A DNA stretch of 64,000 bases, taken from contig CM069765.1 in NCBI GenBank assembly GCA_036169595.1, positions 4,629,001 to 4,693,000 of the forward strand, given 5' to 3'. Position numbers and translations under genes: made by a program. The stretch comes from Dictyostelium firmibasis (lineage: Eukaryota > Evosea > Eumycetozoa > Dictyosteliales > Dictyosteliaceae). The notes beneath the pieces were generated by a model. The model worked only from the letters and a program-made list of their open reading frames with translations. It ran no database searches and was not told the DNA's origin. Of this stretch, positions 17,640 through 56,745 are shown piece after piece. Position 1 is the stretch's first letter. Each line of letters opens with the position of its first letter.

Positions 17640-18008
17640 AAAAAAAAGAAAAAAAAATTGCGCAAATTTTCCCACACCTGTAAAAAATTTTTTCAAAAAA
17701 TTTAGGGGGTGGGGGAGGGGTGGAAAGGTAAGATAGTTTGTAGTGAATACCGACTTTTGAAAAATCTTGAGAAGTTGTTTATATGTTTGAGGTCCTTGAT
17801 AAGAGGTGTTGATAGCATTTTTTAAAGAAGGGGTATGATCTTTTAAAAGGTGGTGGACAATGGCCTTAATCAAGACGAGATTCCCAACAATGACGGCTCC
17901 GATGACGCACCCTTTAACCCAGGGAGAAAAAATGAATCGTCTAAGAGGCGGAAAATAGTGTTCATACAATTTTGAATTCATTATATTGGCAATTCCTTGA
18001 GATAGCAT
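17640..18008 (-). pseudogene. Chlamydial-type hypothetical membrane protein (3' truncated)
   Basis: From ATG at 18008, about 120 residues of bacterial-looking protein: MLSQGIANIMNSKLYEHYF, then a membrane segment around residues 31-55 (VKGCVIGAVIVGNLVLIKAI), then a soluble tail. It lies on the same strand downstream of the pGP6-D-like gene, about 230 bp away. The C-terminal part is lost at the poly-A tract that joins the DIRS terminus, so the natural length is unknown. I recognise no family. Confidence 0.4.
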
Positions 18009-18236
18009 AGAAATCCTTCAATTTGATTTGTTTAATTTACACAATAAATAATTGTACAATATTTTAATAAATAATAGAATCTCTTTCTATGTTCCAAGCT
18101 TGATTATTAATTATTCAGAGATCTTTTATTGAGTGATCAAAAAGATCTAGATTAACAATGGGGCATTTTTTAACAATGCCCTCCTATCGTGGAAGTTTAC
18201 AGTAAATAAAAAAACTTAGGGGCAAGAGTTCTTGTT

Positions 18237-18953
18237 TTATGCAAGCAGTCTTTGGATTGAGATCAGCTGTTGATCGATGAGTTTTTTTTCTTCTGCAGTC
18301 GGAGAGAGCTTAGGTTTTTTGAATAACCGGTGAAGTTTGTACAATAAGGATAAACTTTGTATCACGAGATTCTCTTGCCTTTGATCACTTTCTTCTAGAG
18401 GGAATAATCGCCGAATATTTTCCAGGAGTTCATGTTTTGTTTCTCCTTGATAATTGGTAATGAATTCTTGCTTTTTTACCCAAGAGATATCGCGGCTAGC
18501 AAGGGTATAAATAGCTTGCCGAGGAATGTCTTCTAATTTATCTTGAAGAGGCACGGGAAGTTGAAGATAAAATTCATAATATTGCAAAAAATTGTAAGGC
18601 GTTTGCCGGTTGCCATAAGTTGACATGAGCCAACGTGAGAAGGCTCCATCTCTGTAATGCTTTAAGATTAGCTGGGCTTTTTGGATTCTTTCTCCATGCA
18701 AGATCACAGCTTGATTGGAAATCGCTTTAATTTCTGAGGTAACACTGGCTAAGGTCAAGAAATCTTCTTCTACAGGTCTATACTCTTGAAGAATCTCTCG
18801 TAACGTTTCTTGATCCTTTTCTGAAAGGGGATGAACCTTAAACACTCCTGAGAAGCTAGAAAGGTCTCCTCTTGAAGAAAGGGTGGCAAGTTGAGCCATC
18901 TTAGAAGGCTTGGATTTAAGTCTAGAAGAGAGAAGGCGGTTGACATTAGACAT
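18237..18953 (-). CDS. pGP6-D-like chlamydial protein
   Basis: A 238-residue frame, intact from ATG to stop, resembling the pGP6-D family found on chlamydial plasmids and, as a paralogue, in the chlamydial chromosome. Visible features include the start MSNVNRLLSSRLKSKPSKMA, the central segment FSRWLMSTYGNRQTPYNFLQ (ParB-like/partition-associated in character) and a Lys/Gln-rich C-terminus. Its ATG overlaps the end of the parA-like frame by 8 bases, as in a bacterial operon. The order thrS-parA-gp6D is the chromosomal order I know from Chlamydia. Function is presumed DNA partition or regulation with ParA; the family's role is not well defined. Surprisingly it carries no lesion while its neighbours do. 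Confidence 0.75.
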   Translation of the reverse strand: MSNVNRLLSSRLKSKPSKMAQLATLSSRGDLSSFSGVFKVHPLSEKDQETLREILQEYRPVEEDFLTLASVTSEIKAISNQAVILHGERIQKAQLILKHYRDGAFSRWLMSTYGNRQTPYNFLQYYEFYLQLPVPLQDKLEDIPRQAIYTLASRDISWVKKQEFITNYQGETKHELLENIRRLFPLEESDQRQENLVIQSLSLLYKLHRLFKKPKLSPTAEEKKLIDQQLISIQRLLA

Positions 18954-19702
18954 ACAGGGATAACCTTTGCAAGATTTCTTGAGCCAACTCGGTAAAATCT
19001 AGAGCGGCTCTTGATTTTGGGGCTGTGTCAAAAATAGACTTTCCGTAAATACTTGATTCAGAAACAGCGACATCTCGCCTGACCTTGGTTTCTAAAATTT
19101 TACCGGGATAAGTCTCTTCAATCACCTCTAAGAAGGTGTCATTACTTTTACCTCGAGGATTCCAAAATGAAAGAATGACGCCCAGGATGTCAAGAGAGTG
19201 TCTGATCGATAAGTTTTCAATAAACTGCGAAAGTCTTTGAAGCCCTTTAACACTATAAAATTCAGGTGTGGCTGCAATGAGGGCAAATTGCGAAGCAATT
19301 AATGCCGATTCCATCAGCCAGCAAAGAGAGGGGGGTGTCGATAATGATTGTATCAAACTGTGTCAAAGGGGTTAAAATCGTTTTCAGTTTCTCATGAGAG
19401 TACCGATCTGCTGCAAGAGCTTGCGTCACTTCAACACGTTCTAACCATGTATCTGCTGCAATCAGAGATAAGTTAGGGTAAGGTGTTGAAAGAATCACCT
19501 CTTCAATAGATTTAACGCCTGGGGCTAAACTATCTTGAGCATCGGGATCATACCCAAGTCCTGTCGTTAGGTTAGCTTGCGCATCAAAATCAATGAGAAG
19601 GACATTTTGGTGATGAAAAAGAGCAAGGGCAGCTCCTAAATTAAGGGAGGACGAGGTTTTTGCCGTCCCTCCTTTAAAACTACTTACCGTGATCACTGGC
19701 AT
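18946..19702 (-). pseudogene. parA: ParA/MinD-type ATPase (chlamydial), frameshifted
   Basis: A ParA-family ATPase. Residues 1-20 (MPVITVSSFKGGTAKTSSSL) carry the deviant Walker A motif KGGTAKTS. Then come LLIDFDAQANLTTGLG (Walker A') and FDTIIIDTP (Walker B). Just after this motif the frame breaks near 19320-19330; the downstream part continues in another frame (ALIASQFALIAATPEFYSVK ... ILGVILSFWNPRGKSN) to the stop at 18946. Total coding length fits the usual ~250 residues. It starts 4 bases or so after the thrS stop and overlaps the pGP6-D-like start, so it was the middle gene of an operon. It partitions DNA in the living bacterium; here it is a pseudogene with one visible frameshift. Confidence 0.8.
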
Positions 19703-19708
19703 TGCTTT

Positions 19709-21415
19709 AACCTGTAAAACTAGAGGTGAGGGATTTGCTCCTTTTTTCTTTAATTAAATTGTTTAAAAAGGTTTCAAATGTGATTTCCCCATGAAGAACG
19801 TTATCCCGGGTTCTAAGCGACAAGGTTTGATTTTCCATTTCTTTATCCCCAATGGTGATCATGTAGTTGATTTGAAGAAGCTGGGCATTTCTCACCTTTT
19901 TATTCATCGATTCTGAGCTGTCATCTACATCGCAAATGAAACCAGCTTCGATCATTTTTTCTGCAACATCAATGCAGTTTCTAAATGCCTATCGGGCAAC
20001 AGTCATAATCCGAATTGGAAGGGGGCTGATCCATAAGGGGAATTTTCCGACAAAATGTTCAATCAAAATCCCGAAAAATCTCTCCACAGATCCAAAGATC
20101 GCTCGGTGGAGCATGACGGGATGTTTTGCTAGTCCATCTTTGTCAATGTTTTCAAGCTCGAACTTTTCAGGAAGAGCCATATCCAGCTGCACAGTTCCAC
20201 ATTGCCACGATCTTCCTAGAGCATCTTTAATTTGGATGTCAATTTTAGGACCGTAAAAAGCGCCGTCGCCTTCATTAACCCGAAACTGTTTTTTCCAATC
20301 TTCTAAAGCCTCTTTTAATCCAGAAGTTGCAATTTCCCAATCGGCATCAGTTCCAATACTTTTTTCAGGTCTTGTCGAAAGTTCTTATCGACTCTCAAGG
20401 CCAAATGTGGAATAAATGGTTTCAATCAGGTCTAGAATGCGTGAAATTTCAGATTTGATATCTGACGGTTTCATAAAAAGATGTGCATCATCTTGGTGGT
20501 CAGTAGTGGTCCCAATGACCTGACCGCTCCCACAGCTCTTGGTTCATCAATTGTGGGGTTTTAATTTCATCATACCCAGAGCTGAGCATCAAATCTCTTA
20601 AGAAATCTACAAGACGGTTACAAATGATCATCCCTTTGGGGTAGATAAAGGGAATGCCAGGCGCTTCTTTGATAGAAAAAAGAGCCAGTTTAGGGCCTCT
20701 TTTATGATCTCTTTTTTTCGCCTCTTCCAGAAGAGTAAGATAATCTTTCAGCAGCTGCCGTTGAGGAAATGAGATTCCATAGATACGCTTTAGCATAGGC
20801 TTTGTCGCATCACCTCTCCAATAGGCTCCAGATGTTTTTAACCATTTAAACGCTTTAATTTTCCCCACGCGAGGAAGGTGAGGTCCTCTGCAAAGGTCAA
20901 AAAATTCCCCCTGCTCATACGCTGTGAACAAACCTTCTTCAAACCCTTCAATCAACTCAACTTTAAAGGGATTTTCTTTAAATCTTAGCTTTGCCGCAGC
21001 TCTATCTTGAAAAAGGTGCCGTTTAGGCATAGGGTTTTCGTTAATGATATTGGAAACTTCTTTTTCAATTTTTTCAAAATCTGCATCCGTAATCGACAGG
21101 TTGGCAAAATCGTAATAAAATCCTTGTTCAATGGCAGGGCCAATCGTCGGATGCCTCTGGCCATAATCTAAGAACAGCTTGAGCGAGCACGTGAGCCGAT
21201 GTGTGCCAAAAAATTTCTTTCCCTAGAGGGGTGTCAAACGAAATCAACTCTAGCGCATCACCTTCTTGAATAGGGGTTTCGATATCAAAAAGTGTTCCGT
21301 TGATTTTCACAGCAAGCGCTTAATCAGGGCTATTGAGATGAAGCATTTCAACAAGGTCTTTTACAGATTGCTTTGTTTTTAAATCGATGATCTTTCCATT
21401 CAAGGTGATTGGCAT
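19709..21415 (-). pseudogene. thrS: Threonyl-tRNA synthetase (chlamydial), degraded
   Basis: ThrRS charges tRNA-Thr. The start at 21415 (MPITLNGKIIDLKTKQSVKD) is preceded by an AGGA Shine-Dalgarno 6 bases upstream. Domain order: TGS, the HxxxH editing region (HTSAHVLAQAVLRLWPEA), the SAD/zinc region (FDLCRGPHLP), the class II core ([30 protein letters not shown]), and the anticodon-binding domain (GFICDVDDSSESMNKKVRNA). Lesions seen: an in-frame TAA at 21320-21322, a frameshift near 21150, an internal deletion near 20500 (HWDHY runs almost directly into QDDAHLF, losing ~50 residues with motif 2), an in-frame stop near 20387, and another near 19990. It is clearly non-functional. The 210 bp upstream to the DIRS end at 21628 holds no gene. 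Confidence 0.85.
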
Positions 21416-22031
21416 ATAGATTCCTAAAACATAAGGTTTTTTCTAGTTAAAGGGAAAAAACGAAAAAACCAAAGCACGATTCTTGACACGGTTTAGAATT
21501 CATCCATGCTGTGCTTTAAAAGGTGTGCTGTTGGAGGAAAAAGAGCTTTAAATATTCTTGATTAAAAATTAGTATCAAATTTTGCGATCTTTCACTTCTA
21601 TTTATTGTTAAGATATCGCATTAAATTAAAAATTTAAATAATTAAATTATATTTTATATTAAATATATATATTTAAATTTATGAATATATTTATTTATTT
21701 GAAATTCCCAAATATTTAAGATAGTTTTCAGAGAAATTCAAGAGAATTTTCTGGAGATATTTTAGCTCGAAAAAATTATTGAAAAAATGAAAAATTTCGA
21801 GTTTGAAAAAAGTTGCCACGTGTCACGCACCTATTTTTTTGAGTTTTGCGAAATTTTTCAGAAAGTAAGAACAGTATAAATAGTGGCACTAAATATTGAA
21901 AACAATTTGATTTATATGGAATTCCGACTAAGGGAGGGCGGGTTGGGACCAATTTAAATATATATATTTAATATAAAATATAATTTAATTATTTAAATTT
22001 TTAATTTATATTATCATATATATATTTAAAT

Positions 22032-23006: not shown

Positions 23007-23023
23007 CCTTCCCCTCCCCTCTG
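23007..23023 (-). promoter_or_regulatory. Skipper polypurine tract
   Basis: On the minus strand AGAGGGGAGGGGAAGG directly precedes the 3' LTR, the place where plus-strand DNA priming occurs in LTR retroelements. Confidence 0.7.
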
Positions 23024-23039
23024 AAGGAGATTATGGGCT

Positions 23040-24524
23040 TTAGAATCTACTTGGTGGTTTACTGGTTCTACCACTCTTTGTGACTTTACTTATAACAACT
23101 TCCGATTCTCCTCCTTTACTATTAACTCTTTTCCTTCCAGCTTTGGATTTATTGAAATTCTCCGGAGCCTCTGGATCTTGAAGGTTACTCTCTGATCTGT
23201 CGGATAAAGAGATATTGGAGGTTTCAGGATGAACAATTGACTCAAGATTTTCTTGTTGTCTGCTCTCCCTCCCTTGTTTTGAGTTCAATTTTTCATTTTG
23301 AACTTCCCAATATTCTTTTATCAACTCATCACAGTTGGCATCTTCCTCTTTGACCCATTCAGGTTCTGGATAACCAACAAACTTGGCTAGATAACGTCTA
23401 TGTTTTCTATCGTAGTTAATAATTTTTTCTACTTCATAGGTGGACTCTTCAGTCTCTTCTGCGTCAGGCATTGATATTTCATTTCTAATCCAATCATCAT
23501 CTTCGAATAGTTGTACTAATTGGTCAACGTTGAACACATTGTGTTTTCTAGGATAACTAATTAGATCTAGAGTTACATTGTTTCCATTTACTTCAATGAT
23601 TTTGAATGGACCACAATTTTTTGATTCTAGTTTTTTAGAAATAATATCTTTTGAAAGACCAGTTTCAAAGTATTTTCTTTTTACAAACACTTTGTCACCT
23701 ATTTTGTAGTCGGGTGCTTTACCACGATTTTTATTATAATATTTTTGTGAGGTTATTTGAGCATCAAGAATATTATCACGTATGATTTTTTTGATACTAC
23801 TCAACGGAATCTTAGTTCTTGTTAAAGTATTAAAATGACTCACTGGAGTTGGTGGATTGAAACCATAAACTGCTTGGAAAGGTGACATTTTCGTTACCTT
23901 ACTAATAGATGAATTCATTGCAAATTCTGCTAACGCAGTAAGATCTGCCCATCCTTCTCCGTATGTGCTCGACATCTTTGTTAGGATTGCAACGAATTCT
24001 TGAATTTTTCTTTCAGTTTGGCCATCCCCTTTCGCTCTATGTGCAACAGTCATTTTTAATTTCGAATCCATAGTTTCAGCCCAAAGTCTCCAAATTTCCG
24101 ATATGAATTTTGGGTCTCTGTCTGATACAATGGTCCTTGGATAACCATGTAATCTGAAAACATGATTCAACATGAGTTGTGCTGTATGTTCAGCATTGAT
24201 GGTTTTAGCACATGGGATTGCATGAATCATTTTAGATAATCTACATACTATCATGCAGCATTGATCTACTTCAACTTGGAATCCATTCATTGCCATTTTA
24301 GATTTGGGCATGGAGACGAAATCCATTGATATGTCCCTCCAAACCTCATAGGGTATTTCTAAACTTTGAAGTAACCCAGTTTCCTTTCTATTGATATTCA
24401 ATTGACATACTGCACAAGATTTGATATATCTTTTAATTATATAATACATCTCTAAAATAGTAATCATGTCTAATGTTATTATACACGACTTCGAATGACT
24501 TGTGACCACTATATTTGGCGTCAT
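23040..24524 (-). CDS. Skipper integrase with C-terminal chromodomain
   Basis: The C-terminal part of pol. It shows a CAVCQLN half of the HHCC zinc-binding region, the integrase catalytic core (ISMDFVSMPKS; TIVSDRDPKFISEIW; the DDE acidic residues are recognisable), a GPY-like module (NCGPFKIIEVNGNNVTLDLI), and a chromodomain near residues 365-415 (YEVEKIINYDRKHRRYLAKF, VGYPEPEWVKEED). The chromodomain places it among chromoviruses, whose integrase is guided to methylated histone H3 in heterochromatin. The tail is basic. Confidence 0.85.
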   Translation of the reverse strand: MTPNIVVTSHSKSCIITLDMITILEMYYIIKRYIKSCAVCQLNINRKETGLLQSLEIPYEVWRDISMDFVSMPKSKMAMNGFQVEVDQCCMIVCRLSKMIHAIPCAKTINAEHTAQLMLNHVFRLHGYPRTIVSDRDPKFISEIWRLWAETMDSKLKMTVAHRAKGDGQTERKIQEFVAILTKMSSTYGEGWADLTALAEFAMNSSISKVTKMSPFQAVYGFNPPTPVSHFNTLTRTKIPLSSIKKIIRDNILDAQITSQKYYNKNRGKAPDYKIGDKVFVKRKYFETGLSKDIISKKLESKNCGPFKIIEVNGNNVTLDLISYPRKHNVFNVDQLVQLFEDDDWIRNEISMPDAEETEESTYEVEKIINYDRKHRRYLAKFVGYPEPEWVKEEDANCDELIKEYWEVQNEKLNSKQGRESRQQENLESIVHPETSNISLSDRSESNLQDPEAPENFNKSKAGRKRVNSKGGESEVVISKVTKSGRTSKPPSRF

Positions 24525-26142
24525 GATATTCTCTTACTATTTTATCTATTGTTTCTTTTTCTATAATTATTAATTTTCTTATACCATCTTCTACAAGATA
24601 ATATATATCATTGGTTCCTTCGATGCAGAGATTTTGATTATTTTTCATCTCTTTTAGCCATTCCGAACCTTCTTGTTCTTCTTTAATCTTCTCTAAAAAT
24701 GAGGCATCCCATTGGAATGAGTCATATTTACGAGATAAGAAATCAGCCACACCATTTTTATTACCACTAATATGTATTAATTTTGCATTAAACTCTTCTA
24801 AATATTTTATATAGTTTATCTGTCTATTCGACAATAGCTGTTCGCTCGTCTTATTAATAACATATAGTAGGTTTTGGTGGTCAGTATAAATTGTCACTCT
24901 TTTTCCCATTAATAAATATTGGAATTTTTTGAGTGAATCAACTATTGAAAGGAATTCTCTATCACCAATACTGTATCTTTTCTGAGTTTCAGATAGTTTT
25001 CTACTATGAAACCATATTGGTCTGAGTCTACTTTCTTGTACACCTGACAAAGCTAGGTCACTAACATCACAATATAGATGGTATCCACCATTAAATATAT
25101 TATCCGGATCTTTAACTGGTAATCCGTGTGGTTCCTCAAGTAATTCCATGTCAACAGGATCATCGTTCTTTTCGATTGGGATAGCAACAATATTGTCACC
25201 TTTAAACTCTTCCTTTAATGCAATGAATTCTTCTATTGCTTTATCAGATAGTTTCCCCCCCTTGACCTTTGATTCAGCTGATATGAATGCAGTTTTCTCT
25301 GCATACTTGGGAATAACTCTTCTGAAGAATCCAAACAAACCTAAAGCAGATTCAGCCTCTTTTGCGGTTCTTGGGTTTGGTAATTCAGTGATGGCTCTAA
25401 TTTTAGCAGCTCTTGGAGAAATACCTTTTTGATTTATTTGAAATCCTAAAAAATCTACTTCTTTTTTGAACATATGACTTTTTGATTTTGCAATATAAAT
25501 CATGTATTTTCTACAATATAATAACATTCTAATTATTTCAATAAAATGTTTTTTATAATTCTCCTTTGTATGAATTAATAAATCATCAAAGTATTGGAGT
25601 AGATTCTTAATTTTTCCAAAGGTTTCAACCATAAGTCTAGCAAATGTTGAAGGCGAATTTACCAATCCCATCGGCATTCTAAGATACTCGAATTTTCCAA
25701 TGTGGGTTGTAAACGCCGTATATTGTTGATGTTTTGGATTTAACATCACTTGGAAGAATCCCATAATCATGTCAAATTTAGAAAACAATTTAGAATCTTT
25801 ACATTGACTGATTAAATTATCTGCTGGTGTAAATGGATGTTCATCTCTTACTGTTACTTCATTTAAATTACGATAATCATGAACTATTCGCCATTTACTC
25901 TCCTCTCTGATGAGGATAATTGGAGAAGAATAATTGGATTTTGATCTTGTTATAATACCTAGATCTAAAAATTTCTCAATCATCTCTTCTACTACCTTTT
26001 TCTGATCATCTGATGTGTAATAAATCAACTTTTTTGCTGGTTTTATTTCCATACCTGTTTTAATCAGAATATTGTGAATAATTTTATTCCTTCTAGATTT
26101 CTTTAATTGATCAGAAATTTCTGGAAGTTTCTCAACTATCAC
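24433..26142 (-). CDS. Skipper reverse transcriptase / RNase H
   Basis: RT domain with FSKFDMIMGFFQVML (first Asp), EYLRMPMGLVNSPSTFARLM and the active-site core YFDDLLIHTKE (YFDD) is followed by FLGFQINQKGISP. An RNase H-like domain (HLYCDVSDLALSG, RKLSETQKRYSIGDREFLSI, TIYTDHQNLLYV) and the beginning of the integrase zinc region come next. The upstream neighbour, the protease part, is shared with copy 1 at the left edge of the window. Confidence 0.85.
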   Translation of the reverse strand: MIVEKLPEISDQLKKSRRNKIIHNILIKTGMEIKPAKKLIYYTSDDQKKVVEEMIEKFLDLGIITRSKSNYSSPIILIREESKWRIVHDYRNLNEVTVRDEHPFTPADNLISQCKDSKLFSKFDMIMGFFQVMLNPKHQQYTAFTTHIGKFEYLRMPMGLVNSPSTFARLMVETFGKIKNLLQYFDDLLIHTKENYKKHFIEIIRMLLYCRKYMIYIAKSKSHMFKKEVDFLGFQINQKGISPRAAKIRAITELPNPRTAKEAESALGLFGFFRRVIPKYAEKTAFISAESKVKGGKLSDKAIEEFIALKEEFKGDNIVAIPIEKNDDPVDMELLEEPHGLPVKDPDNIFNGGYHLYCDVSDLALSGVQESRLRPIWFHSRKLSETQKRYSIGDREFLSIVDSLKKFQYLLMGKRVTIYTDHQNLLYVINKTSEQLLSNRQINYIKYLEEFNAKLIHISGNKNGVADFLSRKYDSFQWDASFLEKIKEEQEGSEWLKEMKNNQNLCIEGTNDIYYLVEDGIRKLIIIEKETIDKIVREYHDAKYSGHKSFEVVYNNIRHDYYFRDVLYN

Positions 26143-33607: not shown

Positions 33608-34025
33608 TATTTTATTGATATCTAAAATTATTTTTATAGAGATAGAGAAAAGGTATTAAATTAATAAAAGAATTTTTTTTTTTTTTTTTTTTTTTTATAA
33701 TTATTTGTATAAATTATGTGTGTGTATCTTAAATATATATAGGAGGAATTCCCAAATAAAATAAATCAAATTGTTTTCAATATTTAGTGCCACTATTTAT
33801 ACTGTTTTTACTTTCTTCAAAATTTCGCAAAACTCAAAAAAATAGGTGCGTGACACGTGGCAACTTTTTTCAAACTCGAAATTTTTCATTTTTTCAATAA
33901 TTTTTTCGAGCTAAAATATCTCCAGAAAATTCATTTGAATTTCTCTGAAAATTATCTTAAATATTTGGGAATAATCAAATAAATAAATGTATTCATAAAT
34001 TTAAATATATATATGATAATATAAA

Positions 34026-34327
34026 TAAGATGGCACCGCCATTTAGAGTGGCAGAATTTGACATTCTCTTTGGAGAGGGCATCTCTCGAGCAGGTTCTAT
34101 TTTAGATATCGCGGCAGATTTCAATATCATTGATAAGAAAGGAGCTTGGTTTAGCTATAAAGGGCAAATATTTGGACAGGGAAGAGATACTGTTCGAGAT
34201 GAGCTCAAAAAGAATCCAAAGCTCTTAGATTGAGCTCCAAGTCACCATAATAATGAAAGAAAAAAAGATAGAGGCTACTTCTAAAGCGGCTTCTGAACTA
34301 TTTGATGAGCCATTAACCGATAGCTAA
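34026..34327 (+). pseudogene. recA: RecA, C-terminal fragment (chlamydial)
   Basis: It begins at the DIRS terminus in mid-gene with (NK)[17 protein letters not shown], then SGAW-type segment [18 protein letters not shown]: the end of the RecA core and the start of the C-terminal domain. The frame stops at 34231-34233. A second frame continues (ELQVTIIMKEKKIEATSKAA) to a TAA at 34325-34327, so a one-base frameshift near 34228 is likely. RecA does homologous recombination and SOS control in the bacterium. The N-terminal ~260 residues, including Walker A, are not next to the other end of the DIRS element. Confidence 0.8.
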
Positions 34328-34344
34328 ATAGATATCCATTAATA

Positions 34345-34371
34345 AAGGCCCTATAGCAGGTATAGGGCCTT
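34345..34371. terminator. Bidirectional intrinsic terminator between recA and ispA
   Basis: AAGGCCCTATA and TATAGGGCCTT form an 11 bp perfect stem with loop GCAGG, placed between the convergent ends of recA (+) and ispA (-). This is a bacterial regulatory structure preserved inside the amoeba contig. Confidence 0.75.
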
Positions 34372-34375
34372 ATAT

Positions 34376-34816
34376 CTATTCGCCTCGGCTCAGAGAGAGA
34401 GCATGAGAGTGCTGCGATAACAGTCGAGTCATATGGATAAGTGATTTTTCTTTTTCATCACACTCTTGATAGAGTTTTAGTCGATTTTCCATAAGATCAA
34501 CTGCATCTCGAACATGGGCATCAATTGCTTTTATAGCTCTATTCACTCCAAATTGAAGTGCATAATTCACTGTTTTTCCAGATAGTCGATCTTTCTCGAT
34601 ATCATCGATATCATCAAGTATTTGAAAAGCTCTACCAAAGTGGAGCGCAAGCTGTCGAACGTTCGGTAGAAGATCCATATCGCCTCCTCCAAAGATCCAA
34701 CCAAGCGTGAATGAGAGCTCAAATAGTGCCCCTCTCTTCATATCTATAATTGTCTCGATAGTTTTTTGAGACATATCAGGTGGATTTAAATCGACTAGCT
34801 GCCCACCAATAAGCCC
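34376..34816 (-). pseudogene. ispA: Polyprenyl (farnesyl/geranyl) diphosphate synthase, 3' half
   Basis: The C-terminal half of an IspA-type trans-prenyl synthase: GLIGGQLVDLNPPDMSQ at the break, then RGALFELSFTLGW, and the second Asp-rich motif FQILDDIDDIEKD, ending at 34376. The N-terminal half is at 37057-37557 on the same strand. The reading continues exactly across the break (GASG then LIGGQ) if the sequence between is taken out, so a 2.24 kb insertion split one gene. IspA makes C15/C20 prenyl diphosphates. In Chlamydia ispA lies next to a glmU-like gene, as here. Confidence 0.8.
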
Positions 34817-35122
34817 TCCGAAATAAAGTATTTTTATGGTGTCTTTGGTGCATTGGTTTGTTCAGCAAAAATAATCGATCTGCACGCGAAACGGCATAAT
34901 TTAATTAAAAAATATAAAATTTAAATCGAAAAAATTAAAATTTGTGTTTTTTAAAAATAAAAATCTCATATTTTAATTAAAATTAATTTTTTTATTTTTT
35001 TTTATTTTTTTTTATTTTTTTTTATTTTTTTTTATTTTTTATTTTTTTTATTTTTTTTTATTTTTTTATTTTTTTATTTTTTTTGACAAATGGTATTATA
35101 TTTGAAATATTGATACAATAAA

Positions 35123-35209
35123 GACGATGAAACAGAGATGGAAGATTGGGTTGAGGAACTATTTGATCAAATAGTTCCTCATTCCAATCTCTATCTCTGT
35201 TTCATCGTC
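35123..35209. repeat. Large hairpin, ~43 bp arms
   Basis: GACGATGAAACAGAGATGGA... is followed after the centre TTTGATCAAA by its near-exact reverse complement ...CTCTGTTTCATCGTC. Only a few mismatches occur. The arms encode an acidic peptide-like sequence, so it may be an inverted duplication of a coding scrap. Confidence 0.8.
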
Positions 35210-35429
35210 TTCGTCTTCGTAGACATCCTGGTTATCATCTGGATTGTTTTTAGTTTTGATTATTATTATTTTGACTTTGATTTTGATATTGGTTTTGAGA
35301 AAATTGATGATCAATTTGTAAATGGTTAGTGAAGATCACAATTATTCATATGATAATGATGATGATGCATCACCCATTAATACGTTTTTGGATCGTCAAA
35401 TATTGAATTCAGAAATCTATTTGATTTAA

Positions 35430-35990
35430 ATAATACCAATACACTTCTACTACTACTACCTCTTCATCCATCACCTTCCAATAATCCTGCTTCTTCATCA
35501 AGATCATCACTACTCCTGCTTCACCACCGCTACTACCTCTTGATCCACCATCTAATACTCCTGCTTCTTCATCATGATCATCCAATACTCCTGCTTCTTC
35601 ATCACAATAACAAACTCTCTTTAAATAATACCAATACTACTTCTACTACCTCTTCATCATCACCACCATTGAATACACCTGCCTCTTTATCAAGATCATC
35701 CAATATCACCACTACCCTACCACTGCTACTGCTACTGCTACTGCTACTGCTACTGCTACTGCTACTACCTCTTCATCATCACCACCATTGAATACACCTG
35801 CTTCTTCATAACAATCATCTAATACACCTACTTCTTCATAACAATCATCTAATACACCTACTTCTTCATCACAATCATCTAATACACCTGCTTCATCATC
35901 CAATACCACTACCTCAACTGCCACTGCTACTAATACTACCTATTCTTCATCACCACGAAATACACCTTCTTCTTCATCTAACACTGGTAC
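35430..35990 (+). repeat. Trinucleotide-rich low-complexity tract
   Basis: Tracts of CTACTGCTACTG, ACTACCTCTTCATCATCACC and four or more repeats of CACCTACTTCTTCAT(A/C)ACAATCATCTAATA. One frame reads poly-Leu, another Thr/Ser/Pro-rich. It resembles dictyostelid low-complexity coding DNA but has no sustained gene. Confidence 0.5.
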
Positions 35991-36140
35991 TACTTTAAGA
36001 ATGTCTTCATCTGTTTACCAAAAATTTTAGTAAGATTATATTGGCCTGCAACCATTATGGATACAGATGGTCATCTATATATGAAGAAATAGAATATATA
36101 TTAAAAATTAAGTAGGTATGAATTTTTTAAAAAAAAAGAA

Positions 36141-36266
36141 ATACATTTATATTAATGTATATAACTTGTAGATTGACCTATTTTAAAATTTATATACAAT
36201 ATTGTTTATTTTAAAATTTTAAAATAGGTCAATCTACAAGTTGTATGTACATTAATATAAATGTAT
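36141..36266. repeat. Large hairpin, ~50 bp arms
   Basis: ATACATTTATATTAATGTA...TAGATTGACCTATTTTAAAA is mirrored by TTTTAAAATAGGTCAATCTA...TACATTAATATAAATGTAT with a loop of roughly 25 bases. The near-perfect arms suggest a MITE-like or recently formed palindrome. Confidence 0.8.
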
Positions 36267-36269
36267 TTT

Positions 36270-36990
36270 AAAATGAACTAATGCACCTGTAAAATATAAT
36301 CTTGTTATTATATATATTGTTATTATTTGTATAGTTTCAAAAAAAATGAAAAAAAAAATAAAAAAAAATAAAAAATAAAAAAAAATATTCCTGACGAGCA
36401 GCAAAAATTTATTTCAAAAAAATTTGAGAGTGTGGTAGGTGGGATGTATGAAATCTTGAAGTGGAGTGATGGAAATCAAAAAATTTACATATGTTCTCAG
36501 TTGCCAAATGAAAGAAGCCGTTTGTGAATATGCGAGTGAAATTTTTGTAAAAAAAAAAAAATATTTACCATTTACAATTTCCTATTTATATTTATTTTTT
36601 TTATATTTTATTATTTAATTTTTTTTTGAATAATTATTAATACATAATAAAAATTTACATATAAAAAAAAAAAAAAAAAAATTTTTACTCATAAAAAAAA
36701 AAAAAAAAAAAAAAAAATCACCATTTAAAATGACATTATTACTTTTTTTTCATAGTTATTGATTAAAAACATCTAAAACACTCATATAACCCAAGAAGAT
36801 ACCTTATCATAATGAAAGGGCCTGTTGTTCTGTTATGACATGGTTATTTTGGAGTGTTGATAAGGCTTTTCAAAACTCCGCAAGATCTAAAAAAATAAAA
36901 AAATAAAAAAAATATTTTTTTAATTTAAATTTTAATTATTTTTATTTTTATTTTTAAATTAATTTTTTCCCGGGTTATATAACAAATAAA
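36270..36990. other. AT-rich DNA, no gene
   Basis: Right part of the ispA insertion. It contains poly-A and poly-T tracts and a few less AT-rich words, for example TGGGATGTATGAAATC and AAGGGCCTGTTGTTCTG. No coding frame or RNA gene was recognised. Confidence 0.4.
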
Positions 36991-37056
36991 ATCGAATGCA
37001 CCAGATTATTGGTCATTTTAATATGAACTTATCAATACTAAAAACCGGAGGGGGCC

Positions 37057-37557
37057 TGAAGCACCCATTGTACGGCTTGATTCTAAGATCGCCCGTTTTA
37101 TTGCATCTGGATGAGCCTTATCACACAACTTTGATCGAGCAATTGATTGAAACCCAAGGGCAATTAATGAAAAGCTAGCTAAAATAGCTGTGGCTTCAGA
37201 GAAGGCTTTATGCGTAGTTGGAACGCCGCGGCGCATAGCATCGTTATCCATACATGGGAGATCATCGGCAATTAAAGATGATGTATGGAAATACTCAACA
37301 GCAAAAGCTGCATTATCAAGATACTCATGCTTTGCACACCCTAAAGCCTCCCCTACCATCCAGACAATTGCAGGCCTAAATCTCTTTCCAGAGGATGAAA
37401 GGGCATAGTGAGACGCTTATTTGAGCTCTTGAACGGCTCCGAATTCTCCAGATGAAAGATGCTCTTTTAGCAACTCTTCAAAGCGAATTTTGTGTGGAGC
37501 AATAATCATTCCCAAAGATGTCAGAAAACGCTCAGTACTATTATGAGATGGTATCAT
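37057..37557 (-). pseudogene. ispA: Polyprenyl (farnesyl/geranyl) diphosphate synthase, 5' half
   Basis: N-terminal half of ispA. Two starts are possible: ATG at 37557, overlapping the end of the GlmU-like gene, or ATG at 37509 (MIIAPHKIRFEELLKEHLSS). Then ALSSSGKRFRPAIVWM (the conserved GKR...RP segment) and the first Asp-rich motif SSLIADDLPCMDNDAMRRG. An in-frame TAA lies at 37417-37419, and the gene is cut at 37057 after TMGASG by the AT-rich insertion. So it carries at least two lesions. The operon with the upstream GlmU-like gene matches Chlamydia. Confidence 0.8.
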
Positions 37558-38263
37558 AGAGGAAATTTTGATTCGCTGATTCTATAGCAATCGTGCTTTT
37601 TTGCATCGATTTTACTCTAGCATGAGCCGGAATAACTCCGGTAATATAGAGAGTTGGATAGCAAAAGGCACTCTTTCCAACAACTGTTCCTGGGCTTAAA
37701 ACAGTATTACAACCAATTTGAGAGCTATCGCCAATAATTGATCCAAATTTTCTTAACCCGGTAGCTATTTTTTTGCCCTCATATTGAATAAAGATCGGTT
37801 GGTTATCGAAACGAAGGTTTGCACATTTAATACCAGCGCCTATATTTACCCCATTTCCAATGATAGAATCTCCGATAAAGGCAAAGTGAGCCGCTTTTGC
37901 ACCATCTAATAGAATAGAGTGCATTAATTCAGTAGTATGACCGATTACGCAAGCATCACCGACAAGTACATGACCTCTAATATAAGCCCCATGCCGTATT
38001 TCGCAGTTCTTTCCAATAATTGCTGGCCCTTTGATATAGGCTCCAGCCTCAATAGTCGTCCCTTCACCTATTGAGATCATCTCTGGATTTTCAAAAGTTA
38101 CGCCCTTATATACGCCAATATCAATAGAATTCCATTTTTGGGCAGAGAGGTACAAGTCTATCCTCGGAAGCACCTGCCAAACGTAAGCGACATCATAAAA
38201 AATCGAGCTATGTAAAAAGCTAGATAGGTTAAAAAAATTCTCAGGAGAATGCCAAAAAGACAT
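37541..38263 (-). CDS. GlmU-like left-handed beta-helix protein (chlamydial)
   Basis: An intact 240-residue frame. The N-terminal ~50 residues are unique (MSFWHSPENFFNLSSFLHSS), followed by hexapeptide-repeat turns of a left-handed beta helix: VTFENPEMISIGEGTTIEAG, IIGKNCEIRHGAYIRGHVLV, FIGDSIIGNGVNIGAGIKCA and IIGDSSQIGCNTVLSPGTVV. This resembles the acetyltransferase half of GlmU and the short GlmU-like gene placed before ispA in Chlamydia. No nucleotidyltransferase domain is present. Presumed sugar-nucleotide or acyl transfer for envelope synthesis in the bacterium. It has no lesion, unlike its neighbours. The short length is normal for the chlamydial form as I recall it. Confidence 0.7.
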   Translation of the reverse strand: MSFWHSPENFFNLSSFLHSSIFYDVAYVWQVLPRIDLYLSAQKWNSIDIGVYKGVTFENPEMISIGEGTTIEAGAYIKGPAIIGKNCEIRHGAYIRGHVLVGDACVIGHTTELMHSILLDGAKAAHFAFIGDSIIGNGVNIGAGIKCANLRFDNQPIFIQYEGKKIATGLRKFGSIIGDSSQIGCNTVLSPGTVVGKSAFCYPTLYITGVIPAHARVKSMQKSTIAIESANQNFLYDTIS

Positions 38264-38540
38264 AAGAAGACGCTTTCTCTTTTTTTATGCTTGATTTAGG
38301 TTGAAGACAAATCTACACCAAAAACAGATTTTTTAGCTCTCAAACTATCTCCTCTAGCTTCTTGTCAACATCCACAGAGAGATATGATGATAAATAAGAA
38401 GATGTAAAGTATCTCTTCTTCTTAGGTCTATGTGGATCTGTTTATAACTGGGCTTTTTTATCTCTAAAAACTTTCTGTTTACAGTCTGTTCACTGTTTGG
38501 TTGTATCTCATCTCCTCATTGTTTACACTAAAGCGTACTT
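38264..38540. other. Divergent intergenic region, bacterial
   Basis: Separates the glmU-like/ispA pair (-) from the methyltransferase gene (+). No gene is seen. It has bacterial rather than host composition. Promoters are expected on both strands but I could not fix -10/-35 boxes with confidence. Confidence 0.4.
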
Positions 38541-38568
38541 CATGCTTTTAGACACAATCTATCTACTT

Positions 38569-39754
38569 ATGAACAGACTATTTTCTTTTCACTGTCCCCA
38601 TTTTAAGCTATGTCCTGGATGTGAAAAAGAGCGACCTTTTGAGTCGTATCCAATTCTTTATCAACAAGCTAAAGATTTTTTTGCTCAAATTTCCTTGAGA
38701 AAAATTGAGACGTCCTTTGTCTATGGAGAGCCGATTCTTTGGAGAATAAGAGCCAAACTTGCTTGTAGACAAGTCGAAGGGCGTATTCGGTTTGGAATTT
38801 TTGAGAAAGGATCCCATAATCTCGTTCCAATTCCTCACTGCAGAGTTCACCATCCTGCAATAAATAGAGCTGTAGAGCTTATTGAAAGAGTATGTAATAG
38901 CCTTAGACCAGCCGCTGCCTATCATGAAAAAAAACATTCAGGACTTATCAGATATATTCAATGCTCCGTTGATCGTTCATCTCAGAAAGTTCAACTGGTT
39001 ATTGTCATCTGCGAAAGAGATGTGGCATGAAGAGTGCTCATTTATTGAAATAAAGCTCAAAGAGCATCTAGAGACTATCCATTCGATCTGGTTCAATTAC
39101 AATCCTGATAAAACGAATAGAATTTATGGGGATGAATGGAGACATGTTTTTGGCCCTGAGCATATTTGGGAGCGTATATGTGAAAAAGAGATTCCCCATC
39201 TTCCTTCCCATTTTATGCAGGGAAATCCTGAACTTTTTGAAAAACTTCTTAAAGAGGTGCAAAACCAACTATCCAAAGAGGAGCATCTCATTGAACTCTA
39301 TGCAGGAATGGGCGTTATCAGTATAGCACTTCGAGATAAAGTAGCCTCAACGCTCTCTATTGAAGAGAATCGAGAGTCCTACAGCTCTTTTTGCACAGCA
39401 AAAGGCCGTCTTTCTATAGAGCTACAAAACGAGTGTCAGTTTATTGTTGGTGATTCTGAAAAAGAGTATTTAGGAATTGAACGGAGAAAGCACACACTTC
39501 TCGTCGATCCGCCAAGAAAGGGCCTATCGCAGAGGCTTGTCCAGTCTCTTTCGGAAGATCCCGACTCTACAGGGGCGCAAAAGCTGATCTACATCTCTTG
39601 TCACTATCCAAGCCTTGAAAGAGATATCTCAATTCTTGTAAAGAGTGGAAAATGGGTGGTATCTCATGCAAGCTGCTACCTCTTTTTTCCAGGAACAGAG
39701 CATATAGAGACTTTGGTCATCATGAATCGAAAAGAAGAGACAAAATCTTGGTGA
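38569..39754 (+). pseudogene. RNA (uracil-5-)-methyltransferase, RlmD/TrmA family (chlamydial), frameshifted
   Basis: SAM-dependent enzyme making m5U in rRNA/tRNA. Start at 38569 (MNRLFSFHCPHFKLCPGCEK) is chosen because the Cys-rich Fe-S motif CPHFKLCPGC follows at once; an upstream in-frame ATG near 38542 is an alternative. The first part is read to about 38990, after which the frame shifts (near 38940-39010). The rest, with SAM motif LIELYAGMGVISIAL, DPPRKGLSQRLV and the catalytic Cys motif YISCHYPSLERD, and the final FFPGTEHIETLVIM, is read in another frame to 39754. The combined length (~395 residues) is normal for the family, so a single frameshift is the only lesion seen. Confidence 0.8.
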
Positions 39755-39775
39755 GAAGATTTTAACTTCCGACCC

Positions 39776-39798
39776 CTTGCACCCCATGCAAGTTTTTT
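39776..39798 (+). terminator. Intrinsic terminator after the methyltransferase gene
   Basis: CTTGCA-CCCCA-TGCAAG forms a 6 bp stem followed by TTTTTT, 20 bases after the stop codon. Confidence 0.6.
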
Positions 39799-40103
39799 CG
39801 TCTTTTTATTGTCTCGATTAGTCTCATTATGTCGCATAAAATCAAATTCACAAGACATCTTAGAGTTTGGTTTTGTCTTTTTATATTATCATATATATAT
39901 TGAAATTTATGAATACATTTATTTATTTGATTATTCCCAAATATTTAAGATAATTTTCAGAGAAATTCAAATGAATTTTCTGGAGGTTTTTTAGCTCGAA
40001 AAAATTATTGAAAAAATGAAAAATTTCGAGTTTGATAAAAGTTGCCACGTGTCACGCACCTATTTTTTTGAGTTTTGAGAAATTTTTCAGAAAGTAAAAA
40101 CAG

Positions 40104-40921: not shown

Positions 40922-40957
40922 TTCGTTTGGAAAGGAACTCATTACAGATGGAGAACA

Positions 40958-42391: not shown

Positions 42392-43365
42392 AGTCAATAA
42401 TTAAAACAAGTAAATCGAGTACTTCGAATTTGTTTATGAACTCTTGGCAGCCATCAACCTTAAAGGTCTATGATTCAAACTACTCAAAGTTCCATTTCTT
42501 TTGTATTTTAAATCGTTTGGATCCATCAAAGATTACTCTGGTAGTTTTTATGGACTATTTGACCTATTTATTCAAGCTACAACCTCCGTTGGCTTATTCA
42601 ACAATTAACAGTCATCGTTCAATGCTTAATCAGTTGCTCATTCTTAGAAATCAATCTGAAATCGTTAATAATCCATTCATATCAAGAATAATGACTGGTA
42701 TTCACAAGTTACGTCCGAGTAACTCAAAGTATAATGAAATCTGGAATGCAAATCAAGTTTTCAAATACTTATCTACAATCAACGTTTATCCAAAGTTTAC
42801 ATACTCTGTTCTTCTACATAAGACTTTTGTTCTTTGTAAAATGTTTGGTTTAGCAAGGTCATCTGACTTGGTCAAATGGTCTTACAAGAATTTAATAATC
42901 ACTGAACACTCAATTAAAGCTCCTGTTATCAATGCAAAAGAACAAAGTAATACAAAGAATGCTGATATTTCAATTCTAGAATTAACTTCATTAGATGAAT
43001 CAAATGTAAGTATTTGTCCAGTTCTCCATCTTTCAAGATACCTCAAACACTCTGAACAAAGAAGAACTGCTTCATCTGGTGATTCGGTATTCATTCTCCG
43101 TGATGGTAATCCAGTTTCAGTCGAATATATAAACTCTATAGTTTTATCAATACTTTCAAAATCAGGTATTGATATTACAAAGTTCAAATCTCACTCTACT
43201 CGTTCCGCTATGGCTTCTCTCTTGTTGTCCAGTAATGTTCCATTCCATGTGGTCAAGAAACTCGGTCGTTGGAAATCAAATGATACAGTTGATAACTTTT
43301 ATGACAAGAAAATCATTGGTGAAAAATCTGGTGGTTTCTTAAATAATGTAGTCCAACTTTCATAA
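41830..43365 (+). CDS. DIRS tyrosine recombinase (YR)
   Basis: An open 511-residue frame overlapping the RT end. Ser-rich overlap region, core-binding domain LFMNSWQPSTLKVYDSNYS, catalytic domain HSTRSAMASLLL and LGRWKSNDTVDNFYDKK, C-terminus NVVQLS. Confidence 0.8.
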   Translation: MSQEENQSDRGTHSRILQCQSRSPQSSIRDESQTIQADQELQLATQERSIQSNSTPIRSNSNGSVCFTLQPSNNQLLNHENECSTTRLESVGSMSSVPTSNTFAFCDGEDELIEFEDGFYNTDLPDLEISNLVSDDSSSSSSSSSPSVSSSTGYVPRSIDKRIDRVNTNSNSATMEIGDYSTFQSHVKSIIKTSKSSTSNLFMNSWQPSTLKVYDSNYSKFHFFCILNRLDPSKITLVVFMDYLTYLFKLQPPLAYSTINSHRSMLNQLLILRNQSEIVNNPFISRIMTGIHKLRPSNSKYNEIWNANQVFKYLSTINVYPKFTYSVLLHKTFVLCKMFGLARSSDLVKWSYKNLIITEHSIKAPVINAKEQSNTKNADISILELTSLDESNVSICPVLHLSRYLKHSEQRRTASSGDSVFILRDGNPVSVEYINSIVLSILSKSGIDITKFKSHSTRSAMASLLLSSNVPFHVVKKLGRWKSNDTVDNFYDKKIIGEKSGGFLNNVVQLS

Positions 43366-43806
43366 ATTTAAATATATATATGATAATATAAATTAAAAAT
43401 TTAAATAATTAAATTATATTTTATATTAAATATATATATTTAAATTGGTCCCAACCCGCCCTCCCTTAGTCGGAATTCCATATAAATCAAATTGTTTTCA
43501 ATATTTAGTACCACTATTTATACTGTTTTTACTTTCTGAAAAATTTCACAAAACTCAAAAAAAATAGGTGCGTGACACGTGGCAACTTTTTTCAAACTCG
43601 AAATTTTTCATTTTTTCAATAATTTTTTCGAGCTAAAAAACCTCCAGAAAATTCATTTGAATTTCTCTGAAAATTATCTTAAATATTTGGGAATAATCAA
43701 ATAAATAAATGTATTCATAAATTTAAATATATATATTTAATATAAAATATAATTTAATTATTTAAATTTTTAATTTAAATATATATATTTAATATAAATA
43801 ATTACC

Positions 43807-44082
43807 GGAATTCCATATAAATCAAATTGTTTTCAATATTTAGTGCCACTATTTATACTGTTTTTTTTTTTCTTCAAAATTTCTCAAAACTCAAAAAAAT
43901 AGGTGCGTGACACGTGGCAACTTTTTTCAAACTCGAAATTTTTCATTTTTTCAATAATTTTTTCGAGCTAAAAAACCTCCAGAAAATTCATTTGAATTTC
44001 TCTGAAAATTATCTTAAATATTTGGGAATAATCAAATAAATAAATGTATTCATAAATTTAAATATATATATGATAATATAAA
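43807..44082 (+). repeat. Extra DIRS ITR fragment
   Basis: A second right-type ITR (starts GGAATTCCATATAAATC) follows the element's own right ITR. It ends with the left-type terminus GATAATATAAA, which abuts chlamydial rpsL-side DNA at 44083. Confidence 0.8.
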
Positions 44083-44152
44083 GAAGTCATTCTCAATTAC
44101 TTATCTGTAGAAATAGGGGTATCTACAGGCTTTAAGAGGGCACAAGACCGCT

Positions 44153-44518
44153 CTATTTAGGTTTTTTTGCGCCGTATTTTGACCGACTTTGTTTACGATC
44201 TTTTACTGCAGCACAATCTAAAGCTCCTCGAACGAAATGGTAACGAACACCAGGAAGGTCTTTAACCCTTCCACCTCTTACGAGTACAATGCTGTGCTCT
44301 TGGAGGTTATGGCCTTCGCCACCGATGTAAGCAATGACTTCTTGCCCGTTCGAAAGACGAACCCAAGCTACTTTTCTCAGCGCTGAGTTAGGTTTCTTTG
44401 GAGTTTGACTTGCAAGCACACGCCTCGTTTTTGAGGACATTCTTGCAAAGCAGGTGATTTACAACGTTTTGCTTTTCGTCCCCGCCCTGTTTTGACTAAT
44501 TGATTAATTGTCGGCATC
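44153..44518 (-). pseudogene. rpsL: 30S ribosomal protein S12 (chlamydial), frameshifted
   Basis: S12 sits at the decoding centre of the small subunit. Start at 44518, with Shine-Dalgarno AAGGA 6 bases upstream; the first part reads [20 protein letters not shown], then [17 protein letters not shown]. The frame then shifts by one base near 44405-44420 into [55 protein letters not shown] and the basic end [11 protein letters not shown]. Length is normal for S12 (~122 residues). One frameshift seen; not functional as it stands. The stretch between it and rho (44519-44715) encodes a short open piece (FELDKEKIQRSLIEYDL) that I cannot name. Confidence 0.85.
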
Positions 44519-44715
44519 AGTTTTCCTTAAAATAATTCAATATGAAAAAAGCGTTTCTCATGAACATGCATGTCTAAAGATATCTTTTTCTGGTGAAGAG
44601 GAAGTTTTAAGATCATACTCAATCAAACTTCTCTGAATCTTTTCTTTATCCAATTCAAAGCACACCTTGGATCTGTTTCTACCCCCCTCTATTCCCTGAA
44701 TTCATGGATTGGCAA

Positions 44716-45710
44716 CTACTCTTTCATCGAGAGAAGAAACTCAATATTGCTATTAGTCTTCTTTAAACGGCCCGTTAAAAGATTCATGTCATCTAAAGGT
44801 GATAAATCAGCAAGTGCTTGCCGCATCAGATAGATTTTCTCGAGTTCTTCAGGGTGGCACAGAAGCTCTTCTTTACGCGTTCCGCTCTTAATCAGATCAA
44901 TCGCAGGATAGGTTCTTCGGTCGGCTAAACGTCTGTCAAGAACCAGTTCTATATTTCCCGTTCCTTTAAACTCTTCAAAGATCACTTCATCCATACGAGA
45001 TCCGGTATCAATCAACGTTGTGGCAATGATCGTCAGTGATCCGCCCTCTTCAACATTACGAGCAGCTCCAAATATTCGCTTGGGTTTATGAAGGGCATTA
45101 GCATCAATCCCTCCACTCAAAATTTTTCCTGAATGTGGCTGGATGGTGTTATAAGCCCGTGCAAGCCTTGTTAAAGAATCCAAAAGAATCAAGACATCCT
45201 GATAATACTCAACCAGTCTTCGAGCTTTCTCAATGGCCATCTCTGCCACTTGAACGTTTCTTTCAGGAGGTTAATCAAATGTAGAAGAAACTCCTAAAGA
45301 AAAGGAAATCGGATCGTTCCATAAACCGTATCTCCTTTTTTTAAATCAAACCGCCGGATTTGAGCTGGAGAGACATAAATATCTTCTGCAGAAGGGAGAT
45401 AATTGTAATTTGGAGAGCGTAAAAAACCAAATACATCCGGAAGAACTTCAAACACTCCTTCCCCTACTAAAACTTCTGTGGGAGATTCAGCTTTTGCTTT
45501 TATGATTTCAAAGACAAGTTGAGATTTAGCGATCGATCCTAAGTTAAGACTCATCATCCTTGCAACGTTATTGAGCTCTTCCACTTCCATACGTTGCAGA
45601 TCGGCAATTTTTGTAATCTGTTCTTGAGGTGTCGGTTGAGGGGGGGATGAAGGGAGGGTCTGTTCAGAAGAAAGCGCTTCTGATTCTGGATGGGATGGAT
45701 CGGATTTCAT
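44716..45710 (-). pseudogene. rho: Transcription terminator Rho (chlamydial), internally deleted
   Basis: RNA helicase that ends transcription. Start at ATG 45710 (MKSDPSHPESEALSSEQTLP), chosen because AGGAG precedes it by 6 bases. The N-terminal part has the Rho_N segment (MEVEELNNVARMMSLNLGSI) and RNA-binding cold-shock region (VFGFLRSPNYNYLPSAEDIY). Near 45290 the sequence jumps from GTIRFPF to VSSTFD, losing ~150 residues with Walker A and part of Walker B, and changing frame. An in-frame stop follows ([15 protein letters not shown]). The C-terminal part is intact: [35 protein letters not shown] (Q-loop side), [20 protein letters not shown], ending at 44716. Confidence 0.85.
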
Positions 45711-45729
45711 TCGTGCTCCTTGCATAAAT

Positions 45730-46120
45730 TGGGCAGTACCTTAAAAAAATTCTTTTTTTCATCGCACAACATCACCTACGATCCAGGTTTCTCAAGAAGA
45801 AAAATCTTGGTTATAAACCTCCTATTTCGATTTTGCTTAAAAGCAAAAAGAAGTAGGTTAATGGCTATAAGGAAGAAATCTTCTAAGAGTTGAATTGAGT
45901 TTAAAAACACAATAATCGTAAGTTTTTTCTATTAAAATGGTGATTTGTAATGATGTCTTAGGGGAAAAATAACTTTATATTCTCTTAAGACATTTAAGAG
46001 TGAGGAGCTTAACACGGTCATCGTGTCAGCATCAACTCTATCACCTCCCCTTTTTTTCATTAAACCGTAAATCAGTCAGTTGATTGAAGGTAAGAAAATC
46101 TATAGGGATGATTTTCCTTA
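45730..46120 (-). pseudogene. Possible dephospho-CoA kinase (CoaE) remnant
   Basis: Between polA and rho, where coaE lies in Chlamydia, only ~390 bp remain. One minus-strand stretch near 46000-46055 reads GGDRVDADTMTVLSSSLLNV, resembling the VDAD segment that follows the P-loop in CoaE. The rest has no usable frame. Position supports the call more than the sequence does. Confidence 0.3.
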
Positions 46121-46123
46121 ACG

Positions 46124-46482
46124 TTAACACTCTCCCCAATTTTTTCCAATTGAAATATGGACTTCAAGAGGAACTTTTAAAGTCATCACCTGTTCCATAT
46201 GGGCTTTAACGTCTTGAGATAACGAAAAAATCTCTTCTTGGGGCGCTTCAAAGAGTAATTCATCGTGAATTTGAAGGAGCATATGGCAGTGAGGTTTTTG
46301 ACTTAAGTGACGATCAATCTGAATCATTGCCATCTTTATCAAATCAGCAGCGGTTCCTTGCAGAGGGGTGTTAATGGCCAGTCTTTCAGAAGCGGCTCTA
46401 ATCATAGGATTTTTTTTCGTGAGATCAGGGATCGGCCGCTTTCTTCCTGTCATTGTGATGGCATACCCTGTCTTTCTTGCCT
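46124..46482 (-). pseudogene. polA: DNA polymerase I, C-terminal fragment (chlamydial)
   Basis: The last ~119 residues of the polymerase domain: ARKTGYAITMTGRKRPIPDL, then the conserved segment ERLAINTPLQGTAADLIKMA, and catalytic motif C MLLQIHDELLFEAP (HDE), ending IGKNWGEC at 46124. No lesion in this part. The upstream portion is lost at the junction with a DIRS fragment at 46483. The order polA-(coaE)-rho on one strand matches the chlamydial chromosome. Confidence 0.85.
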
Positions 46483-56741: not shown

Positions 56742-56745
56742 GAAT

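Follow-up and report, generated by a model that had tools for sequence, protein, structure and literature searches.

The window analysed here, a stretch of 64 kb of the amoeba Dictyostelium firmibasis (C1:4629001-4693000, that is, within 4.629-4.693 Mb of contig C1), contains four pieces of bacterial-type DNA, A to D, in an array of DIRS retrotransposons. C1 has 9,412,997 bases in an assembly of 31,455,843 bases and 12 contigs. The four pieces sum to about 13.6 kb, have GC contents of 0.37-0.40, and are interspersed with DIRS elements, a Ty3/gypsy element, and other host elements as identified by domain searches. In searches of the assembly against itself A, C, and D are each single-copy. The features are as follows:

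17749..21627, minus strand: piece A, a single-copy fragment of a chlamydial chromosome whose genes are ordered as in chlamydial loci
18228..18953, minus strand: A, gene of the CT583/pGP6-D family (UPF0137), open frame; Pfam UPF0137, E 5.2e-79; 86% identity to protein P0121
18961..19702, minus strand: A, parA-like pseudogene, frameshift near 19322-19344; matched in two frames by the L032 protein (83% and 74%)
19713..21442, minus strand: A, thrS pseudogene; tblastn with the L026, L032, L053, and L066 proteins, Pfam tRNA_SAD
34024..39885: piece B overall, holding a host insert
34024..34233, plus strand: B, recA truncated at a DIRS terminus, 3' part; Pfam RecA_C, tblastn
34376..34813, minus strand: B, 3' part of an ispA-like gene; Pfam polyprenyl_synt, tblastn
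34814..37052, unstranded: host element of 2239 bases inside ispA, ends CCCTCCG...CGGAGGG
37053..37581, minus strand: B, 5' part of the ispA-like gene, with one in-frame stop that is absent from the sister copy B'
37565..38263, minus strand: B, GlmU-like hexapeptide gene, open frame; Pfam hexapeptide, 87% identity to protein P0241
38593..39754, plus strand: B, RNA m5U methyltransferase pseudogene, frameshift near 39010-39030; Pfam tRNA_U5-meth_tr, tblastn
44083..46480, minus strand: piece C, rpsL (S12), rho, and 3' end of polA; Pfam Ribosom_S12_S23, ATP-synt_ab (which fits Rho), and DNA_pol_A
about 56153..59864, plus strand: piece D, bacterial-type genes in broken form, one of them for a P-loop GTPase
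17640..17748, unstranded: host repeat adjoining A; seven copies of 93-99% on C2, C5, and C6 and one of 81% on C5
39886..44082, unstranded: interval from B to C, made up of DIRS-type elements and nested termini; terminal sequences on either side, open reading frames (ORFs)
23040..26142, minus strand: ORFs of the Ty3/gypsy (Skipper-type) element; RVT_1, RNase H, Integrase_H2C2, rve, and SH3_Tf2-1
3739..6641, minus strand: DIRS ORFs for reverse transcriptase (RT)/RNase H/tyrosine recombinase, as an example of the array

All genes that the first-pass annotation had named in A to C are present, each with a Pfam match (ParA by AAA_31/CbiA), and its joints are accurate to a few bases with the exception of the start of A, which has to be moved to near 17749 since 17640-17748 is a host repeat. 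This short stretch was thus rejected as bacterial DNA on the basis of its copies on C2, C5, and C6. B had been described as a bacterial piece, which it is, but it is split by the host element at 34814-37052. The joint at 59862-59864 was placed correctly but marks the end of a fourth piece, D, and the phenomenon extends past the window. The decay of most genes is equally apparent from stops, frameshifts, and gaps in parA, thrS, ispA, and the methyltransferase. For example, thrS in A contains three in-frame stops and one frameshift near 21150-21230 and lacks about 66 codons at 20498-20503. The rho gene of C is spread over two open frames in the ORF list.

The surrounding DNA is that of a dictyostelid DIRS cluster, as had been proposed. 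The DIRS elements carry RT, RNase H, Dam-like, and tyrosine-recombinase domains and the Skipper-type element rve and SH3_Tf2-1 domains. In the cluster, RT/RNase H and tyrosine recombinase are found together with inverted termini and many near-identical copies. According to the available text of the D. firmibasis genome paper, a DIRS1 region lies at 4.5-4.8 Mb of chromosome 1, into which the window falls, and is low in messenger RNA and high in small-RNA signal; genomic DNA coverage is described there as constant, with a mean long-read depth of 199x for the whole assembly (PMC11193728). In a term search of the main text, neither "chlamyd-" nor "centromer-" occurs (0 occurrences each; PMC11193728).

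The chlamydial affinity of A and B is evident from both their closest relatives and their gene order. The pGP6-D-like protein of A is 86% identical to P0121 from the metagenome-assembled genome (MAG) of a Candidatus (Ca.) Rhabdochlamydia sp. (next best 74%), and the GlmU-like protein of B is 87% identical to P0241, which is encoded on an NCBI contig of 1,543,817 bases (next best 60%). The RecD encoded by a piece neighbouring the window reaches 82% identity to a MAG named Chlamydia sp. (next best 43%), and this relative is not among the 232 chlamydial genomes searched, where the best-scoring match has 41%. Identities are much lower for the m5U methyltransferase, at best 37% among 20 chlamydial genomes. 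For gene order we used 78 loci with a pGP6-D-like protein, obtained from a scan of one-genome-per-species contigs and spanning only the neighbourhood of this gene; 62 are chlamydial by name and 16 are labelled Verrucomicrobia, Bacteroidetes, Acidobacteria, or plain "bacterium". In 72 of the 78, thrS and parA lie beside the pGP6-D gene as in A. Few of these loci extend far enough to show the genes of B, but those that do carry glmU(+), ispA(+), and recA(-) about 4-9 kb further on, with the methyltransferase(-) ahead of glmU, as in B. A glmU gene was found in 11 loci (ten on that side; in L090 it is elsewhere), ispA in ten, recA in eight, and the methyltransferase in two. The proposed chlamydial origin thus holds for A and B, while C is typed by Pfam matches only and D has relatives in just three of the 20 chlamydial genomes, with identities of 49, 41, and 38%.

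The bacterial DNA is most likely derived from more than one donor. A second thrS gene at C1:4541008-4541811 shares 59% identity with the thrS of A across 150 residues. In a tree with the chlamydial sequences, thrS of A, whose long branch is partly due to its frameshifted ends, joins L026 (named Rhabdochlamydiaceae) and L032 with support of 98/90; other sequences named Rhabdochlamydiaceae fall elsewhere. The second thrS is grouped (96/92) with the Parachlamydiaceae L063, L066, and L103 and with L053, L073, and L089. One thrS per bacterium is the norm. Because two different thrS genes fall into separate groups, the simplest reading is that at least two chlamydial donors contributed. Beside the second thrS are two coding stretches that are found next to thrS in 40 and 39 of the 78 loci as well. 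Their order and orientation agree with the majority of these loci (in L090 they are elsewhere), and here about 3.6 kb of repeated DNA separates them. The closest relatives are intracellular symbionts, as seen for pGP6-D (86% to Ca. Rhabdochlamydia sp.), recD (82%), and in the thrS tree.

A wider region of 260 kb including the window (C1 4.48-4.74 Mb, 5 kb of which are N) contains about 20 low-copy stretches with GC contents of 0.37-0.44 that sum to 47.9 kb, or to 43.1 kb without two ankyrin-SecA pieces. Their limits are good to some tens of bases, and the stretch at window positions 12849-13910 is dropped from this count, which is otherwise 21. By tblastx 14 of the 21 match the 78 loci, seven of these via only one or two loci; the seven pieces without a match to these pGP6-D-neighbourhood loci include C, D, and the ankyrin-SecA pieces. 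Further pieces carry recC-recB, recB-recD, and a porin-like gene, named by eye, which has relatives in 40 of the 78 loci and no match in Pfam and NCBIfam. Among ten proteins submitted to NCBIfam, two matched, RecC and a SecA-like protein, both below the curated cut-offs. Scans for tRNAs and Rfam families in the window and 20 neighbouring loci gave no matches.

The two ankyrin-SecA pieces (C1:4604722-4606374, L116, and C1:4611125-4614203, L117) encode ankyrin repeats and SecA-like domains and reach a GC content of 0.44. Matches in chlamydial genomes are weak (19 of 20, the best with 31% over 118 residues). In a plasmid collection 11 records matched, and the best three, at 30-36%, are from Ca. 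Megaera (35.6%), Legionella geestiana (30.3%), and Ca. Bandiella. By these matches the donor is likely to have been a non-chlamydial intracellular bacterium.

Whether the pieces decay inside the host can be judged from a second recA-ispA-glmU locus, B' (C1:4697857-4701297), which lies 29 kb from B and 4.9 kb beyond the end of the window. Leaving out the 2.2-kb element of B and about 114 bases absent from glmU of B', the two differ across 2660 aligned bases by 38 substitutions and nine indels, some of which break the frame; the methyltransferase copies differ by five bases in length. The 33 coding differences are distributed over codon positions 1, 2, and 3 as 12:11:10. In contrast, 71-82% of the differences are at position 3 in all of eight control pairs of bacterial loci, which with 78-94% identity are more diverged than B and B'. 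Because the differences are spread evenly over the codon positions, unlike in the bacterial pairs, B and B' most likely acquired them in a setting in which these genes went unused. For this one pair, to which the test was applied, the aligned copies establish, as far as codon positions can, that the genes decay in the host free of selection. B' likewise keeps an open GlmU-like frame, minus about 38 codons (the roughly 114 bases). In B' (L120) a short upstream part of recA lies inverted beside the rest, at C1:4701092-4701193.

The sister copies also reveal the order of events. The 2239-base terminal-inverted-repeat (TIR) element interrupts ispA in B, and ispA in B' does not contain it. Another bacterial piece carries, at C1:4574111-4574442, a 332-base miniature inverted-repeat transposable element (MITE) whose ends are inverted and whose target is duplicated over 3 bases; the site is empty in the sister copy of this piece (C1:4534990-4535040). 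The MITE family is found on C1, C4, C5, C6, and C7. Given these empty sites, the host mobile elements arrived after the bacterial DNA. B is flanked by two DIRS termini that face inward, one of which replaces the upstream part of recA. Because recA in B' continues across this point without DIRS, the terminus in B came later, and at least this DIRS joint is secondary. Over 20 pieces (12849-13910 included, the last piece at the region edge excluded), 17 of the 40 ends lie at DIRS termini, nine at a TIR element, and 14 at something else.

The recC-recB piece, present twice on C1, has further copies of 98-99% identity near DIRS copies on two other contigs (C5:4138362-4140616, C5:4267250-4268428, and C6:38229-40102). 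At least this bacterial piece has thus spread between chromosomes by copying, together with the arrays. Judged from the coordinates, 290 and 289 bases interrupt one of the C5 copies and the C6 copy, respectively, at the same point, with a 5-base overlap, an interruption that the C1 copy does not have; this suggests common descent of the C5 and C6 copies. After the interruption the C6 match is short and 87% identical, and the other C5 copy stops at that point. C6 measures 2.98 Mb, and the smallest main contig given in the available text of the genome paper 3.9 Mb (PMC11193728).

Taken together, chlamydial DNA of at least two lineages has very probably been integrated into DIRS arrays of D. firmibasis, cut by transposons, copied, and left to decay; in the assembly it is contiguous with host nuclear DNA. 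The initial proposal of endosymbiont DNA in a centromere-type region is thus refined, with support, to two or more chlamydial donors, a possible third bacterium, and one piece copied to other chromosomes. DNA of intracellular bacteria would have entered the nucleus of an ancestor of D. firmibasis, most likely when breaks in the gene-poor DIRS arrays were repaired with DNA of digested or lysed symbionts. The incoming pieces were colinear stretches of chlamydial chromosomes, as the gene order in A, B, and the second thrS piece shows. Host elements then cut them: recA by a DIRS terminus, ispA by a TIR element, and another piece by a MITE. Some were duplicated within chromosome 1, and one reached DIRS-bearing regions of two further chromosomes. 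They may persist since the arrays are gene-poor and silenced, and are probably inert as genes, a filler in centromere-type heterochromatin.

Several observations weigh against integration and decay as described. The joints are known from the assembly sequence alone, and original joints between bacterial and host DNA are indistinguishable from those that transposons made later. In B, the far side of the DIRS element does not hold the missing upstream part of recA, so that the history involved rearrangement and was more than a single clean insertion. The control pairs have diverged further than the copies compared, and pGP6-D, the GlmU-like gene, and most of recD keep open frames. The authors of the assembly discarded bacterial contigs, so that a living chlamydia in the culture is possible. 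An assembler might then have joined DNA of such a chlamydia to DIRS repeats, which are generally difficult to assemble, and the source cultures were indeed grown on food bacteria and contigs judged bacterial needed removing according to the available text of the genome paper (PMC11193728). However, a chimera would not account for sister copies that differ by private stops and indels without codon bias, for a MITE and a TIR element that interrupt bacterial DNA while the corresponding sites of sister copies are empty, or for one piece copied on three contigs. In addition, a search for bacterial 16S gave two matches, on C12 and C10, taken unread for mitochondrial and nuclear ribosomal DNA. An assembly artefact is therefore very improbable, and a simple contaminant, which the first-pass annotation had already argued against, is rejected.

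The open frames, including that of the GlmU-like gene in B', could also mean that some chlamydial genes became useful to the amoeba. The neighbouring genes are broken, however, the differences between B and B' bear no mark of purifying selection, and the region is low in messenger RNA and high in small RNA in the available text of the genome paper (PMC11193728), so that functional transfer is just as hard to credit and was rejected. It is somewhat less far-fetched, though still unlikely, that DIRS elements captured the bacterial DNA themselves, for example as circles recombined by their tyrosine recombinase, instead of break repair. This would fit the 17 piece ends at DIRS termini and the position of B between two inward-facing ones, but the terminus at recA in B came later and 23 of the 40 ends adjoin other things. 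As the sole route, capture by DIRS was therefore rejected. Beyond integration and decay as such, it is conceivable, and we put it forward tentatively, that the DIRS arrays act as a lasting trap and archive, with repeated uptake from two chlamydial families and a non-chlamydial third bacterium, transfer of copies among centromere regions on three or more chromosomes, and some pieces now in working centromeric chromatin.

The best-known cases of symbiont DNA inserted into host nuclei come from Wolbachia, among them insertions in insects. Organelle DNA insertions (numts) are fragmented and decay neutrally, and the pieces described here resemble them in both respects, but their source is a symbiont and not an organelle. 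Nuclear insertions of Wolbachia have also been described in filarial nematodes (PMC2882956, available text). The likeness consists in decaying pieces of bacterial chromosomes in a nuclear genome; unlike the alphaproteobacterial Wolbachia, the donors here are several and chlamydial, the host is an amoeba, and the pieces lie inside a centromere-type DIRS array. In D. discoideum, DIRS-1 clusters are the centromeres (PMC5006619, available text). The region shares with them the arrays of tyrosine-recombinase retrotransposons and the Skipper-type elements, from which a centromere role may be supposed by analogy; in contrast to those clusters, as far as described in that text, about 48 of the 260 kb are bacterial. 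Chlamydia-like symbionts with closed 1.5-Mb genomes have been reported from the Dictyostelium isolates GS8b and M4B (PMC12324515). They are likely relatives of a donor but live in other isolates, whereas here the DNA is integrated. The available text of that paper, the one among the literature matches listed with both Dictyostelium firmibasis and chlamydia, does not mention integrated DNA. Reports of chlamydial DNA in dictyostelid chromosomes were absent from the literature matches listed, in a search that reached neither subscription papers nor supplements and only a minority of preprints. That symbiont DNA can insert into the nucleus is already known; several donors in a centromere-type retrotransposon array look like a new form of this.

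A phagocytic protist would accordingly store fragments of several intracellular bacteria in one chromosomal compartment, and the internal copies permit relative dating and neutrality tests. This makes the route of bacterial DNA into a eukaryotic nucleus testable, as well as the idea that centromere-type arrays are preferred sites of entry or survival. As a record of past infections the cluster could tell which symbionts the amoeba lineage carried. It is also a warning that such DNA may escape notice when a genome is cleaned contig by contig.

Two further stretches of the window deserve mention. The stretch at 12849-13910, about 1 kb long, is single-copy in the 260-kb region and has a DIRS terminus on its left side; an overlapping ORF at 12760-13191 is without a Pfam match. 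At 53447-54448, an ORF contains a DDE_Tnp_4 transposase domain and its neighbour appears chromodomain-like by eye, so that this region is, by its domain content, a DNA transposon in the array.

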